From assembly GCA_019309545.1 (NCBI GenBank), contig JAFDGA010000025.1, positions 1 through 55,511 of the forward strand: 55,511 nt of DNA, in the 5' to 3' direction. A program made the position numbers and the translations under genes. Under the pieces are notes generated by a model. The model had not been told where the DNA came from and searched no databases. It worked only from the letters and a program-made list of their open reading frames with translations. How positions within the stretch are numbered: position 1 is the first letter of the stretch; each line of letters starts with the position of its first letter. Positions 49,054 through 55,511 of the stretch are shown here, one piece after another. This DNA comes from Deltaproteobacteria bacterium (GTDB lineage: Bacteria > Desulfobacterota > Desulfobaccia > Desulfobaccales > Desulfobaccaceae).

Positions 49054-49159
49054 AATTGAGGGGATTGAACCCCTTTAACACTACCCCGAAGTCTAAAGCC
49101 GTCAGAATTAAGCCACGAAGGCGTTTCCACCTGGAGGTGGAGTCTCGTGGTTTTTTTTT
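49054..49159 (+). ncRNA. Structured leader or small RNA before the first exported methylase gene
   Basis: The predicted transcript has a hairpin GGGG/CCCC (49060-49072) and ends in an intrinsic terminator, so it is either a roughly 105-nt small RNA or an attenuating leader for the following gene 53 bp downstream. It does not match a riboswitch I recognise; in particular no B12 box is visible. The surrounding DNA also carries a perfect 10-bp inverted repeat AAAGCCGGGC/GCCCGGCTTT at 49032-49041 and 49160-49169. Confidence 0.45.
49113..49159 (+). terminator. Two-tier intrinsic terminator
   Basis: CCACGA (49113-49118) pairs with TCGTGG (49145-49150), enclosing a second stem CCACCT/AGGTGG, and nine T follow directly. 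It lies upstream of, not after, the exported methylase gene. Confidence 0.8.
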
Positions 49160-49211
49160 GCCCGGCTTTTAGGAAAAATTTACGAGTTCTTAATGATGAA
49201 AGGTTGGCGGG

Positions 49212-50144
49212 ATGGTAGGGATTAAACTGGCGAAGCCGATATGGATAACGGCCTTACTCATGGTAGGGGGGATGCTTGCAGTCCTTCCGGCGGTTGCTGG
49301 TTCGGGAACCTTATACTTAGTGAGCACCGGGCCGGGCGACCCCCAACACCTCACGGTCAAGGCCCTGGAGACCATTAAAAATGCCGACTTGGTGTTATGC
49401 AGCCATCAATCGGCCAAGAATTTGCGAGAAATCCTAAAGGGAAAAAAGGTGGAGGATCCCTGGAAGGAACTCTGGTTTTATCAAGGGGTGCCATGGATGA
49501 AAGATCTTGCCACCTTCAAACCAGAAGCGCGGGCCAAGATCGTGGCGGAAAAAAAGCGCCAACGAGATGAATATGTCAAGCGGCTGCAAATCCTCCTGGA
49601 CCAGGGGAAAAAAGTGGCGCTTTTGGAAGGCGGCGACCCTACCGTCTATAGCCGAAGCTTCTGGATTTTGGATGAATTAGACGAGGGCCGGGTGGAAATT
49701 ATCCCCGGGGTGGGAGCCATGACCGCGGCCATGGCCGCTCTGAAGAAAAGCAGCACCGGTGGCGGGGCCCGATTTGTGGCCCAGACTGCGCCTTTTGCCT
49801 TTTTCGGGAAAAGTGACCGGGACGACCTGGCCCGCGACCTCTCCCGTTATCCGGGCACTCTGGTGTTCTATATGGGAATAGCAGAAATCGAGAACTTGGT
49901 GAATACTCTGAAGAAGTACAATTCTGCCGACTTGCCGCTGGCCGTGGTCTTTTACGCGGGCTACGCTGAGAAAGAAAAGGTCATCAAAGGCAACCTGGGC
50001 AATATTCTGGGAAAAGTCGCTCCTGAAAAGGAGGACTGGTTGGGAATGATTATTGTCGGGCACTGTCTGGAAGGTCCAGCTTTCAATTTATCGGGAAAGG
50101 CTAAGAAGCCCGCCATCCGTAAAGGCCCAAGTCAAATGAAATGA
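49212..50144 (+). CDS. Exported tetrapyrrole-methylase-fold protein (copy 1)
   Basis: The 310-residue protein opens with a Sec-type signal peptide (IWITALLMVGGMLAVL, cleavage likely after AVA at about residue 29), then the complete tetrapyrrole (corrin/porphyrin) methylase fold: LYLVSTGPGDPQHLT with ADLVLC, the second motif GGDPTVYS, VEIIPGVGAMTAAMAAL, GTLVFYMG, LAVVFYAG and MIIVG. A family-unusual insertion with DPWKELW lies between the first two motifs. CbiF- and CobM-type relatives are cytoplasmic SAM-dependent enzymes, so export is odd and suggests a binding role. No start codon near the first beta strand would give a cytoplasmic form. It is followed by a TonB receptor and a paralogue. 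Confidence 0.85.
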   Translation: MVGIKLAKPIWITALLMVGGMLAVLPAVAGSGTLYLVSTGPGDPQHLTVKALETIKNADLVLCSHQSAKNLREILKGKKVEDPWKELWFYQGVPWMKDLATFKPEARAKIVAEKKRQRDEYVKRLQILLDQGKKVALLEGGDPTVYSRSFWILDELDEGRVEIIPGVGAMTAAMAALKKSSTGGGARFVAQTAPFAFFGKSDRDDLARDLSRYPGTLVFYMGIAEIENLVNTLKKYNSADLPLAVVFYAGYAEKEKVIKGNLGNILGKVAPEKEDWLGMIIVGHCLEGPAFNLSGKAKKPAIRKGPSQMK

Positions 50145-50372
50145 AGATTTTCTTAAAACCTGAAAGGAGAAAAGGAATGAGGGCAAAACTTTGACTGTCA
50201 GAAAAGAGGGCAGGCCGCTCCCGCCAAGGTTACCGACCTGCCCTCGAGGGTGTCGGTAAACGTCACACCCCTTATTATTTGTACCATAATGCGAAGGATT
50301 ATGGCAATGGGGGTTGTGACGCACACGGGAACTTTTTTAGCTTGATGGACAAGGGAAAGGAGTGTGCGATTC
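50145..50372 (+). other. Structured leader of the TonB receptor gene
   Basis: This gap contains a short well-initiated frame (AAAGGAG, then ATG at 50177 and a stop five codons later) and several perfect helices. GAGGGCAGG (50206-50214) pairs with CCTGCCCTC (50237-50245). TTACCGA (50230-50236, in the loop of the first) pairs with TCGGTAA (50253-50259), which together can form an H-type pseudoknot. CGTCACA (50261-50267) pairs with TGTGACG (50315-50321) around CCATAAT/ATTATGG (50284-50304). It ends near the ribosome site AAAGGAG at 50356. I do not recognise a known riboswitch. Confidence 0.5.
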
Positions 50373-52478
50373 ATGGCTCGCAGAGGATTTATAGCGGGTT
50401 TGTGCCTGATTTTTCTGGTTTTTGCCCAGGCGGTAGGGGCCGCAGCAACGCCAGAAACTCAGGGAACCCAAGAACGGGCGACGGAAGCCTTCAAATTGGA
50501 GGAGATCACGGTCATTGCTCCCCAACCGGGAGTGGAAATTACTACAGATAAAACCATCATTCGCATGGACCAGTTCAAAAAGCCGGGTTATGTCCGCACC
50601 CTGGAGGATGTGCTGCAGGAAATCGGCGGCATTGACGTGCTGCGCCATAATGCCCTGATGGCCAGCCCTGGGGACGAGATCGCCATCCGGGGACTGAGCG
50701 AAGGGCGACTGGTAGTGGAGATCGACGGCCGGCGTATCAATCACACCGGCCACTTTGGCAGATACGTGGTTGACTGGTCCACCCTCAGCCTTGACGACAT
50801 CGACCGGGTGGAAATCATCCGGGGAGCCCATTCCGTGCTGCACCCCTTTGCCATCGGCGGGGTCATCAACATTATCACTAAAAAGGGGCAGCAGACCGAT
50901 CAAGTGAAACCTGACGTCAGTATTTCGTCCGGCTATTCTTCCTTCAACACGTATTTCAACCAGGGCTCCATTGATGGTGGTCTCTTCAATCGGGTGGGCT
51001 ATCATTTTTCCCTCAGCCGCCAATCCACGGATGGCTTTTTGCGCAACAACTTCCAGTGGAACAACAACTTTGCTGGTGGCTTGCAGTTCTTTCTGCCGTA
51101 CGAGGCCAAGCTGTGGTTGGGATTCCGGTACAGTAAAGTGAACTACGGCTTCCCAGTGATCAATGACCCCTCCCGACCGGATTTTGACCCCGATTATCCC
51201 CCCTTCATACCGATAGGGGCGGATGCGCTGCGCCACCTGCCCGCTACGGTCCAACTGCCCGGCCCGCCCATCCCGCAATGGAATAAAAACACCTACTACC
51301 TGGACGGCATTCTGACCGTGCCGCTGGGGCCGGGCACCAGCAAGGTGCACGCCTACACCACCGACGGCCGCCGGGATATCCATTTTTACAGATTCATGGG
51401 GGGCAAAAACGTCTTTGTGCATGCCGATACCCGGGACGTCACCAAGGGCATCCTGGCGGAGTACCGGGATGTCAAGCTGGTGGAACGGGATTATCTCAAA
51501 AATTATCTGACGGTCGGGTTTGATTATCAATTGCTGGGAATGCCTCCCCAGAACCCGATTATTTACCTGGTTAAATCCGCCTATCTGCAAGATGTGGCCA
51601 AGTTGTGGAACCGTCTGACCTTTACCGCGGGAGTGCGCTATTATAATATTCAGATGGATACCTATTATGCCTGGTTTGAACAAGGCAAGCCGGCGCCTGC
51701 CTGGCCGACCGCCGGCAAGCAGCAACGGGAATCAAACTGGTTCCCCAGCTTCAAGCTGGATGTCCAGGTCACCCCGGATACGGCGCTTTACGCCGCGGTG
51801 AGCCGGGCCCTGCGCCTGCCCTGTCCTTGAGACTACTACTGGTGGGCGCGGTGCGCGTCCAAAGATAATCCGGTGTTGCGACCGGAAACGGCGTGGGAAT
51901 ATGAAACCGGCATCATCCAGAGCTTTAAACCTCTCACCCTGAGGGGCACCTTCTACTTTTATGACATCTCGGATTTTATGAACGACAGCGGCATTATGGC
52001 GCCAGGCACTGGCCTGGGCAGCGACTGCCTATATAACATCCCTAGCGTCAAATTATACGGGGTGGAATTGGAGGCGGCGCTGGATTTCAGCAAACGCTTC
52101 CGGGGCATGGTCTCCTACAGCTATCAGGCATTCGACGCCACTGATTCCCCCTTCCAAAAGGGCTGGAGCTATTATCTACCACTATTGTATCCGAAACACA
52201 AAATCAAGGCGATGGGGCGGGCGCGACTCTGGGAAGACGGCTGGCTGCAGGCCAACCTGCGCTTTGTCAGCGACCGCAGCGTCCAGAAACAAGAATATGG
52301 CCGGCTGAAAGCCTACGCCACCCTGGATTTAGGCTTCGAGCAGAAGTTTCGCTTCTGGCAGCAGGAACTGACCCTGAACGCCTTTGCGAACAACCTGACG
52401 GGCAAACGCTATCAGGAAATCCATGGTTACTATATGCCTCGGCAGACATACGGGTTCACCATCGGCACCAAATTTTAA
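50373..52478 (+). CDS. TonB-dependent outer-membrane receptor with one in-frame TGA
   Basis: One frame of 701 codons, the normal receptor length, broken only by TGA at 51828-51830 (codon 486). It has a signal peptide (FIAGLCLIFLVFAQAVGAA), a TonB-box-like EEITVIA, the plug domain (LEDVLQEIGGIDVLR, IAIRGLSEGRLVVEIDG, VEIIRGAHSVLHPFAIGGVINIITKKG) and a beta barrel ending in Phe (TIGTKF), as outer-membrane proteins do. The sequence on either side of TGA (SRALRLPCP and DYYWWARCASKDNP, then LRPETAWEYETG) is continuous receptor sequence without frame loss. It may be a selenocysteine codon or a nonsense mutation. It lies between the two exported methylase-fold genes. ATG 50373 has AAAGGAG ten bases upstream. 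Confidence 0.82.
51843..51861 (+). other. SECIS-like hairpin just after the in-frame TGA
   Basis: TGGGCGC (51843-51849) pairs with GCGTCCA (51855-51861), seven pairs with one G-U, around a GGTGC loop. The loop begins 19 nt after the TGA, inside the 16-37 nt range described for bacterial SECIS elements, and has G at its first two positions as those require. This could occur by chance in GC-rich sequence. Confidence 0.35.
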
Positions 52479-52513
52479 CCGGTTGTTTGATAACTCTAAA
52501 AAGAGGATAAATC

Positions 52514-53467
52514 ATGTCACTACAGTTGCGTATAAGTGTTAGGTTATTGCTTGGAGTGTTGATGCTAGTGGCCGGAGTGCACTCCGCCCACCCCGGTTCC
52601 CTCACTCCCGGCACCTTTTATGTGGTGGGCACCGGACCCGCCGGACCGGAATACGCCACCCTCAGGACCCTGGAAGTCATCAAAGAAGCGGATTTTATCC
52701 TGTGCAACGATAAAATGAAGCAACGTTTTCAGGCATATCTAAAAGGTAAACCGATTCTGGCTGACCCCTGGAAGGGTATGTGGGATTATCACGGCAAGCC
52801 CTGGGAAGAACTCTCGAAAATGAAACGGGAAAAAAAACTGGCCTTTCAAAAAGAGCGGATCAGGATCCGCGATGAGATAGTCCGCCATATTAAGGAGAAA
52901 CTGGCCCAGGGAAAGACCGTGGTCTTGTTGGACAGCGGCGACCCCTGTCTCTTCGGTCCGTCCCACTGGTTTATTGAAGGTTTTGATCCGCAACAGGTGG
53001 AAATCATTCCGGGAGTAGGGGCCTTCAGCGCGGCCATGGCGGCCTTGAAAAAATCCAGCATCCCGGCCTATGATACGCACTTTGTGATGCAGACCTCGCC
53101 TTTTTTTATCACGGGCAAAAAGGACAAAGGCGCGGCAGTGATCAAAGATCTAGCCAAATATCCCATCACCATGGTGTTTTACATGGGTTTAAAGGAACTC
53201 CCCAATCTCATTCCCCTGATAAAGAAGTATCATCCCGGCGATCTGCCCGTGGCCGTGGTGTATAATGCCGGTTACCCTGATAAGGAGAAAGTGGTCAAAG
53301 GGACGCTCGACACTATCGTGGACAAAGTAGCCGGTGAAAAGGAAAAATGGAACGGCCTGATTATTGTGGGCCGGTGTCTGGAAGGTCAACCTTACCGCGG
53401 TCGGGTGGAAAACCTGGTTGGTTATCAGGACCTTCAAAAGATTAACAAGCCGGTCACGAAGCCGTAA
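52514..53467 (+). CDS. Exported tetrapyrrole-methylase-fold protein (copy 2)
   Basis: This 317-residue paralogue of the protein at 49212 has a clear signal peptide (LLLGVLMLVAGVHSA), then FYVVGTGPAGPEYATLRT with ADFILC, DSGDPCLFG, VEIIPGVGAFSAAMAALKKS, ITMVFYMGL, VAVVYNAGYPDKEKVVKGTL and LIIVG. The same insertion, with DPWKGMWDYHGKPW, is present. Here the usual GPGD of the first motif is GPAG, removing the conserved Asp, so SAM-dependent catalysis is doubtful. It follows the receptor gene by 35 bp, with AGAGGA before ATG. Export of both paralogues argues against a misplaced start. Confidence 0.85.
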   Translation: MSLQLRISVRLLLGVLMLVAGVHSAHPGSLTPGTFYVVGTGPAGPEYATLRTLEVIKEADFILCNDKMKQRFQAYLKGKPILADPWKGMWDYHGKPWEELSKMKREKKLAFQKERIRIRDEIVRHIKEKLAQGKTVVLLDSGDPCLFGPSHWFIEGFDPQQVEIIPGVGAFSAAMAALKKSSIPAYDTHFVMQTSPFFITGKKDKGAAVIKDLAKYPITMVFYMGLKELPNLIPLIKKYHPGDLPVAVVYNAGYPDKEKVVKGTLDTIVDKVAGEKEKWNGLIIVGRCLEGQPYRGRVENLVGYQDLQKINKPVTKP

Positions 53468-53521
53468 ATTCGAATTGATGCTTGGTGACCGGGTTACTTT
53501 GACAAAACTTTAAGGAGAGTA

Positions 53522-54286
53522 ATGATGAAGAGAATCGTGCTGACCTTTATCATGGCCCTGATCTTGATCTTTCCGATGAGCTCCCACGCTCATATGTTCT
53601 GGCTGCTAACCGATAATGATACCCCCATGGTGAACGAGCCCGTCCAGGTGGAGATCGGCTTCGGTCACAAATTCCCCAAGGATGAAGAGATCAAGGCGGA
53701 GCGCTTGGGTGCAATCAAGGCTGTGGCCCCGGATGGCCAGGAGTTGGCCCTGAAAAAAATCTCCACCACCCGGTATGAATTGGTGCCGCCGGCAGCCGGT
53801 GTCTATGTGATTTCGGCCCAGATGGTCCCGGGGTTCGTCACCCGTACTCCTCAGGGGATGAAGATGCAAACCAAGAAGGGGGTTCCAGATGCCAACTACT
53901 GCTTTCGGTTTGACATGGCCGCCAAGACTCTCATCACTGTGGGCGGTAAGAAACAGGGGGCTGACCACCGGGCCCAGAGCACCCTGGAAATTATGCCGCT
54001 CAAAGACCCCATGGCCCTGAAAATCGGGGATACGTTGCCGGTAAGGGTGATATTTCAGGGAAGGCCCCTGATCGGCGCGGAACTAGAATTCACTCACGAG
54101 GGGTGGGCTGACCCCCAGAAACCTTTCGCTACTCTGGGCAAGACCAACGACCAGGGTGAAATCCAGGTTAAAGTAGACCAAGCGGGGTGGTGGTTCCTGA
54201 CCGCCTCTCACAAAACCCCCTATGCGCAACCGGAGGAGTGTGATGATAATTTTTACCGCGCCAGCCTTACCTGGCAGGTCCGATAA
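53522..54286 (+). CDS. Exported DUF4198 protein (metal-uptake-associated family)
   Basis: DUF4198 proteins are periplasmic beta-sandwich proteins, often encoded beside nickel or cobalt uptake genes. The 254-residue protein has a signal peptide ending SSHA; predicted cleavage before HMFWL gives a mature protein with histidine at its N-terminus, a feature that can bind metal. Further His residues are in FGHKFP, DHRAQST and FTHEGW. GGAGAG precedes ATG (a second ATG three bases on would do as well). It is 54 bp after the second methylase-fold gene and 3 bp before the permease gene, so the genes probably act together. Confidence 0.85.
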   Translation: MMKRIVLTFIMALILIFPMSSHAHMFWLLTDNDTPMVNEPVQVEIGFGHKFPKDEEIKAERLGAIKAVAPDGQELALKKISTTRYELVPPAAGVYVISAQMVPGFVTRTPQGMKMQTKKGVPDANYCFRFDMAAKTLITVGGKKQGADHRAQSTLEIMPLKDPMALKIGDTLPVRVIFQGRPLIGAELEFTHEGWADPQKPFATLGKTNDQGEIQVKVDQAGWWFLTASHKTPYAQPEECDDNFYRASLTWQVR

Positions 54287-54289
54287 GCA

Positions 54290-55511
54290 ATGAACGACGT
54301 TGCCCCCGCCGGTGCCCGGCAACTCTCGGAGCCAAAAAGCCCGCGCCACCAACTCGGTCTATTCTCCGCCGTCATCCTGGTGGTCGCTAATATGGTGGGC
54401 ACCGGCATCTTCACCACCTCAGGCTTCATTATTCAGGAATTACAGAACCCCTGGGCCATGCTGTTCTGCTGGGCTTTAGGGGGGCTATTCGCCCTGACCG
54501 GCGCCCTCTGCTATGGCGAACTGGGAGCCCGGTTTCCCCGCGCCGGGGGGGAATATGTCTTTCTGCGGGAGAGTTTCGGCGAACCCTTGGCATTTTTGTC
54601 CGGCTGGGTATCACTGTTGGTGGGCTTCTCGGCTCCGATTGCGGCGGCGGCCATGGCCTTTGCGGTTTATTTCCTGGGGAGCGCCGGCCTTGGCCTGAAC
54701 TCCGGTTTTACGTGGACCGTTCAGGGGCTGACGGTGCTGACCCTCTCCCCCGTCACCCTGTTGGCCTCGGGGGTAATCCTGGCCTTTTCCTTTATCCACC
54801 GCCACAGCCTGTTCTTGGGCAGCCACATCCAGAACCTGCTTACCCTGTTTAAAGTTGTCCTCATCCTGGCCTTGGTCTTTTTGGGACTAGCCTGGGGTGC
54901 GGGGTCGGCGTCCCACTTTGGTGCCCTGCCGCCACTTAGGGTCTTTTTTTCCGGTCAGTTTGCTACTTCGCTGATTTTTATCACCTTTGCCTACAGCGGC
55001 TGGAATGCCGCGGCCTACATGGGAAGCGAAATTTCCCGCCCCACCCGGAACATTCCCCTGGCTCTGGCCCTGGGCACCCTCTTGGTCACCATTCTTTACC
55101 TGCTACTCAATATGACGTTTGTTTACGGGCTCTCCGCCCAGGAGATGAGCGGGGTTCTGGAGGTAGGGGAAAAGGCCGCCCTGGCCCTTTTCGGGCCCGA
55201 GGTAAGCCGGGGCTTCGCCGGAGCCATTGCCTTGAGTCTGCTCTCCCTGATCAGCGCCATGATGATGACCGGCCCCCGAATCTATCAGGCCATGGCGGGT
55301 GATGGTTTGTTCTTTACCGCCTTCGGCAGATTAAGGGGCGGCTCCGGCCCCCCGGGCAACGCCATCCTGCTGCAGGCCGGACTGGCGCTGGTCATGGTGT
55401 TCACCGCCTCTTTCGAGAACCTGTTGATCTTTATCGGCTTTACCCTATCGTTGTTTTCTCTGATCACTGTGGTGGGGCTCATGGTATTGCGTCACCGGCA
55501 ACCAGCCCCGG
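54290..55511 (+). CDS. APC-family amino acid permease (3' end outside window)
   Basis: The open frame continues past the right edge, giving about 407 residues of a polytopic membrane protein. It opens with a short cytoplasmic segment and then SAVILVVANMVGTGIFTTSGF, the helix-1 motif of APC transporters, followed by about ten more hydrophobic spans, with FITFAYSGWNAAAYMGSEI matching the helix-6 region and RIYQAMAGDGLFF typical of the family. The substrate is not fixed; it could be an amino acid or polyamine. ATG lies 3 bp after the DUF4198 stop, so it belongs to the same transcript, but a role in metal or tetrapyrrole uptake is not implied by its family. Confidence 0.88.
   Translation, partial: MNDVAPAGARQLSEPKSPRHQLGLFSAVILVVANMVGTGIFTTSGFIIQELQNPWAMLFCWALGGLFALTGALCYGELGARFPRAGGEYVFLRESFGEPLAFLSGWVSLLVGFSAPIAAAAMAFAVYFLGSAGLGLNSGFTWTVQGLTVLTLSPVTLLASGVILAFSFIHRHSLFLGSHIQNLLTLFKVVLILALVFLGLAWGAGSASHFGALPPLRVFFSGQFATSLIFITFAYSGWNAAAYMGSEISRPTRNIPLALALGTLLVTILYLLLNMTFVYGLSAQEMSGVLEVGEKAALALFGPEVSRGFAGAIALSLLSLISAMMMTGPRIYQAMAGDGLFFTAFGRLRGGSGPPGNAILLQAGLALVMVFTASFENLLIFIGFTLSLFSLITVVGLMVLRHRQPAP

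Follow-up and report, generated by a model that had tools for sequence, protein, structure and literature searches.

Exported tetrapyrrole-methylase-fold proteins encoded with a predicted selenocysteine-containing TonB-dependent receptor in Desulfobacterota

What are two exported proteins with the fold of tetrapyrrole methylases doing on either side of a TonB-dependent receptor? The question is raised by a stretch of 55,511 nucleotides (nt) from contig JAFDGA010000025.1 of a Deltaproteobacteria bacterium (the window), for which an original prediction, made from the letters alone, had proposed a tetrapyrrole, corrinoid or metal acquisition system. In this paper we go beyond that prediction in three respects: the receptor is a predicted selenoprotein, at least two sub-lineages of the methylase-fold group lack the signal peptide and are accompanied by ATP-binding cassette (ABC) importers, and some members are tandem fusions or fusions with molybdopterin-domain/c-heme-motif modules. 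We judge the chances evenly balanced that the operon listed below carries out TonB-dependent uptake of a metal complex, using the selenocysteine receptor and the exported methylase-fold proteins (TPM1 and TPM2).

49212..50144, + strand: TPM1, exported tetrapyrrole-methylase-fold protein, 310 amino acids; signal peptide at about residues 1-30; motifs GPGDP, GGDPTVYSR and DPWK
50195..50351, + strand: structured leader RNA ahead of the receptor gene, made of two hairpins; core of the first hairpin CUCCnGCCAAGGUUA
50364..52478, + strand: TonB-dependent receptor, PCPU motif-type (NF049947), 704 amino acids with TGA read as selenocysteine
51828..51830, + strand: in-frame TGA codon, predicted to encode the selenocysteine (U) of RLPCPUDYYWWARCAS; lies in a barrel loop predicted to be extracellular
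51831..51863, + strand: hairpin like a bacterial selenocysteine insertion sequence (bSECIS), GGGCGC-GGU-GCGCGUCC, 3' of the TGA
52514..53467, + strand: TPM2, second exported tetrapyrrole-methylase-fold protein, 317 amino acids; signal peptide at about residues 1-24; GPAGP replaces GPGDP
53522..54286, + strand: exported DUF4198 protein (NikK-like)
54290..55510, + strand: APC-superfamily amino-acid-permease-like protein, a recurrent operon member, extending past the window end
49098..49160, + strand: strong terminator-like hairpin and T run upstream of TPM1, conserved in genomes G001 and G002

The protein between TPM1 and TPM2 has the Plug and barrel domains (Pfam) of the TonB receptor that had been predicted there, but it is not a single open frame, since TGA 51828-51830 splits it into two segments of the same frame, 50364-51830 and 51831-52478. 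An in-frame TGA is found in 12/12 aligned loci from several families, followed by nearly identical DNA, and the codons just after it are conserved, with a uniformity of 0.87 against 0.62 elsewhere, a value reached by 0/20000 permutations. This recurrence ruled out a pseudogene or an assembly error at the receptor. Receptors of a second type, PUIUD, preserve the stem of the SECIS candidate by compensatory changes relative to the PCPU type, and the source genome encodes SelB and tRNA-Sec; reading of the TGA as some other amino acid is less likely, given the SECIS-type hairpin and this machinery. When the TGA is read as U the receptor scores 1158.6 bits with NF049947 (curated cut-off 800), while its score with the BtuB model TIGR01779, 77 bits, falls below the cut-off of 599.7. 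The order of strands in an AlphaFold model (structure prediction was run on the receptor and on TPM2) places the selenocysteine in an extracellular barrel loop. We therefore predict from the sequence that the receptor is a selenoprotein. No TPM-linked receptor in the alignment was seen to carry Cys in place of selenocysteine, and a search for the SECIS core in viral contigs gave nothing.

Selenocysteine-containing TonB receptors have been predicted before (PMC12013277), and PMC13188914 lists one type. NF049947 has the same in-frame TGA at the motif as the window receptor, and its relatives are NF049944 (PUIUD), NF049946 (CU) and NF049945 (FCYXU); its title, however, gives the motif only, with neither a function nor a methylase-fold partner, whereas here the partner is constant. 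In 395 Desulfobacterota genomes, all 11 of 11 PCPU-type receptors stand about 20-70 nt directly upstream of a gene of the TPM clade, and four PUIUD-type loci also have such a gene; the CU-type receptors in the set examined had no methylase-fold partner. We found no description of a methylase-fold partner of selenocysteine TonB receptors in the literature, and a literature search for a methylase-fold/TonB uptake system returned nothing relevant. Receptors that have so far been named by motif only thus gain a constant partner, and with it a function that can be tested. The PUIUD receptors of loci L081-L084 contain a pair of in-frame TGA codons separated by a single codon (U-I-U) and are followed by an exported methylase-fold gene, one example being L084 7762-9819 in Desulfosarcina widdelii.

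The claim that two methylase-fold proteins carry signal peptides and share a DPWK stretch held up. TPM1 and TPM2 match TP_methylase (PF00590) with E values of 1e-40 and 2e-41 (139.9 and 143 bits; gathering score 27.8), are 47% identical to each other and begin with signal peptides of the n/h/c type, as do nearly all of 24 aligned relatives; DPWK is absent from SUMT in the alignment. The AlphaFold model of TPM2 (predicted local distance difference test score 82) has the two-domain methylase fold and superposes on CbiF (1cbf) with Z 20.9 and a root-mean-square deviation of 2.7 over 226 residues, in agreement with the earlier idea of a fold reused outside the cytoplasm. With the SUMT-type models of NCBIfam, however, the two proteins reach just 93-98 bits against cut-offs of 185 or more (TIGR01469, best score 98 against 185; TIGR01465, 94 against 260), and in a quick maximum-likelihood tree a branch with a Shimodaira-Hasegawa-like approximate likelihood ratio of 89 sets 78 domains of the TPM group apart, next to SUMT and CbiF. 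The TPM proteins thus form a clade of their own, probably descended from the SUMT/CbiF lineage. With their sister clade (SUMT, as CobA or the CysG C-terminal domain, and CbiF/CobM) they have in common PF00590, the fold and the glycine, GDP and PGV motifs; they differ in being exported, in the DPWK insertion, in the replaced canonical Arg, Glu and Tyr, in scores that fall short of every enzyme-family cut-off and in being linked to TonB receptors instead of lying in cobalamin operons.

Are the exported proteins still enzymes? They might modify the imported ligand, by methyl transfer or otherwise, with S-adenosylmethionine (SAM) or a SAM-like group that comes from outside or is exported, but we regard this as improbable. 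In a comparison of 78 clade rows with eight SUMT/CbiF proteins the clade retains the glycines of the fold along with GDP and PGV, GPGDP and the Arg of YSR persist in TPM1-type members, and class I methyltransferases occur in the operons of signal-less members, all of which would suit an enzyme. Against it, SAM is not known to occur in the periplasm, the Asp of GPGDP is kept in only about 50% of the clade (it is present in TPM1 and lost in TPM2), and the Arg of VVR, the Glu after the GDP motif and the Tyr of VVY, invariant in SUMT/CbiF, are kept in 0% of the rows. Which SUMT residues contact SAM or substrate we take from the SUMT literature.

Relatives of the TPM proteins were sought by sequence only in the same 395 genomes, with a narrower profile (A2) seeding the contig scan, after which their neighbourhoods were fetched. 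They occur in about 40 genomes. A TonB receptor lies within 4 kb of 61/72 clade genes, as against 1/69 canonical methylases of the same phylum, only 2/69 of which have a signal-peptide-like start, and the link to receptors extends over many families; the expectation that other genomes would have exported methylase-fold genes beside TonB receptors was thus borne out. We also looked for an absence of signal peptides, a B12-operon context and a lack of receptor linkage, and none of these overturned the original prediction. The clade comprises proteins with a single domain, tandem fusions and another class (class B), whose methylase fold follows molybdopterin-domain-like modules bearing a conserved CxxCH. 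G004, whose genome is a single contig of 3.28 Mb, has five copies. Among cultivated anaerobes, Desulfosarcina widdelii (strain PP31) carries the system, as probably does Desulfobacca acetoxidans, so the cargo of the selenocysteine receptor becomes directly testable. Exported molybdopterin-domain-like/CxxCH/methylase fusions adjoin TonB receptors at L195 1331-3094, L198 9817-11583 and in relatives.

What, then, would be taken up? All five genes, for TPM1, the receptor, TPM2, the DUF4198 protein and the APC permease, lie on the same strand in the window, and the predicted exported DUF4198 gene was recovered with 147.9 bits (Pfam gathering score 34). We take DUF4198 to be the NikK domain. Genes for DUF4198 proteins are near 31/72 clade genes; a NikL-like protein, matching NF058648 below its cut-off, is encoded in nine clade loci; and NikMQO adjoins the loci of G001, G002 and G072 only. 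NikK and NikL have been proposed as periplasmic parts of a nickel transporter (PMC545781). The NikKLMQO nickel energy-coupling factor transporter (PMC545781; PMC11247825) shares with our loci the NikK-like and NikL-like parts and, at some of them, NikMQO, but as known it includes neither a TonB receptor nor a methylase-fold protein. This context supports the metal-acquisition setting foreseen for the locus and favours a nickel/cobalt-type complex as the most likely ligand, with a corrinoid or other tetrapyrrole second.

Under the metal-complex reading, the complex would be recognised outside the cell by the selenocysteine receptor, probably through a soft-ligand cluster of Cys-Pro-Sec and a nearby Cys in an extracellular loop, and would be handed to the periplasm with the help of ExbB/ExbD/TonB. 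There the exported methylase-fold proteins may bind or process that ligand, using the old substrate cleft but acting otherwise than as SAM methyltransferases, and transport would be completed by DUF4198/NikK-like and NikL-like proteins together with an inner-membrane carrier, which may vary by lineage between an APC permease, NikMQO and an ABC importer. The APC permease, encoded beside 28/72 clade genes, could instead be the inner-membrane carrier for a non-metal cargo such as an amino-acid or nucleoside conjugate, a reading to which an exported nucleoside-hydrolase/FmdE fusion at four loci also lends itself; since soft-metal ligands are indicated both by the links to NikK/NikL/NikMQO and by the Cys/Sec cluster, we rate it the least probable of the alternatives.

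A tetrapyrrole ligand has more in its favour, and we hold it to be an unlikely but serious competitor: a corrinoid or other tetrapyrrole would be imported, and the exported fold would be a periplasmic tetrapyrrole-binding protein. The descent from SUMT/CbiF with retention of the cleft motifs, the BtuFCD-like ABC genes that adjoin signal-less members, the conserved CxxCH of class B and the cytochrome c assembly-like neighbours in some loci (named by eye from sequence) all fit it. Periplasmic CbiK of Desulfovibrio offers an exported tetrapyrrole-pathway fold. Another is HmuS, CobN-like with a signal peptide, from the Hmu system of Porphyromonas (HmuY-HmuR-HmuS; PMC13227078), which is likewise encoded with a TonB receptor in a heme operon. 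HmuS differs from the TPM proteins as a large chelatase-type protein of Bacteroidota that has neither a methylase fold nor selenocysteine, but its precedent indicates that a tetrapyrrole-pathway fold can move out of the cytoplasm for uptake. On the other side, positions that do not vary in the tetrapyrrole-using relatives have other residues here, FecCD/BtuC-type ABC transporters serve for siderophores as well, the immediate gene neighbourhood is NikK/NikL-like, and the window has no B12 riboswitch. Cobalamin riboswitch control of BtuB is common, not universal.

The proteins that have lost the signal peptide bear on where the fold acts. Signal-less members lie on at least two branches within the clade, and their loci have no DUF4198 or APC genes. 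An ABC importer, of BtuC/substrate-binding-protein or DppB type, is present in the loci of 7/9 signal-less members against 3/57 exported ones (p 5e-6), a correlation with only about two independent losses of the signal peptide behind it. In its simplest reading, a signal peptide lost where an ABC importer is present suggests that the protein works on the imported ligand wherever transport delivers it. A DppB/NikB-type ABC importer in L085 adds to the nickel/cobalt context. A TonB receptor, parts of an ABC importer, a class I methyltransferase, FmdE and a TrmO-like protein recur as a cluster at loci L176, L177, L171, L162 and L085, in lineages in which the methylase-fold protein is often cytosolic.

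Besides that small number of losses, several points weigh against uptake of a metal complex as proposed here. NikMQO is absent from the window; no known riboswitch, the cobalamin riboswitch included, was found within the window; a search of 1.16 Mb for the delta-proteobacterial NikR box (GTGTTAC-N13/14-GTAACAC) gave only 2 sites with 2 mismatches each; the signal peptides were assigned by rule and not by SignalP; and, as the GPGDP Asp is kept in half of the clade, catalysis could still occur. None of the NikR-box sites lies upstream of genes of the system, and NikR control of the operon was rejected.

How might the receptor gene be regulated? The 157-nt leader ahead of it (50195-50351) gave a two-hairpin RNA model with the core CCnnGCCAAGG and the second loop UUUCUACCAGAG. 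Beyond the training set, 297 genomes gave 18 matches to the model with E of at most 1e-7, of which 16/18 immediately precede TonB receptor genes and 2/18 are at contig ends; most leader-bearing receptors among these matches are without a methylase partner. The element has no counterpart among Rfam families and is a candidate for a new riboswitch or leader of many Desulfobacterota. We put forward more tentatively than the uptake of a metal complex itself a selenium-dependent route, in which a Cys-Pro-Sec receptor would pass its cargo to periplasmic carriers of metal complexes or tetrapyrroles derived from corrin/siroheme methyltransferases, with receptor expression set by this undescribed leader RNA. 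The same leader RNA is present at L207 9863-14163 (G000 contig 19) with a paralogous TonB receptor and ExbB/ExbD/TonB, without a methylase-fold partner, and the hairpin at 49098-49160, 5' of TPM1, is possibly an attenuator.

The exported fusions of a nucleoside-hydrolase domain (IU_nuc_hydro) with FmdE, encoded near these operons, include L052 10252-11739 and L081 14485-15963.

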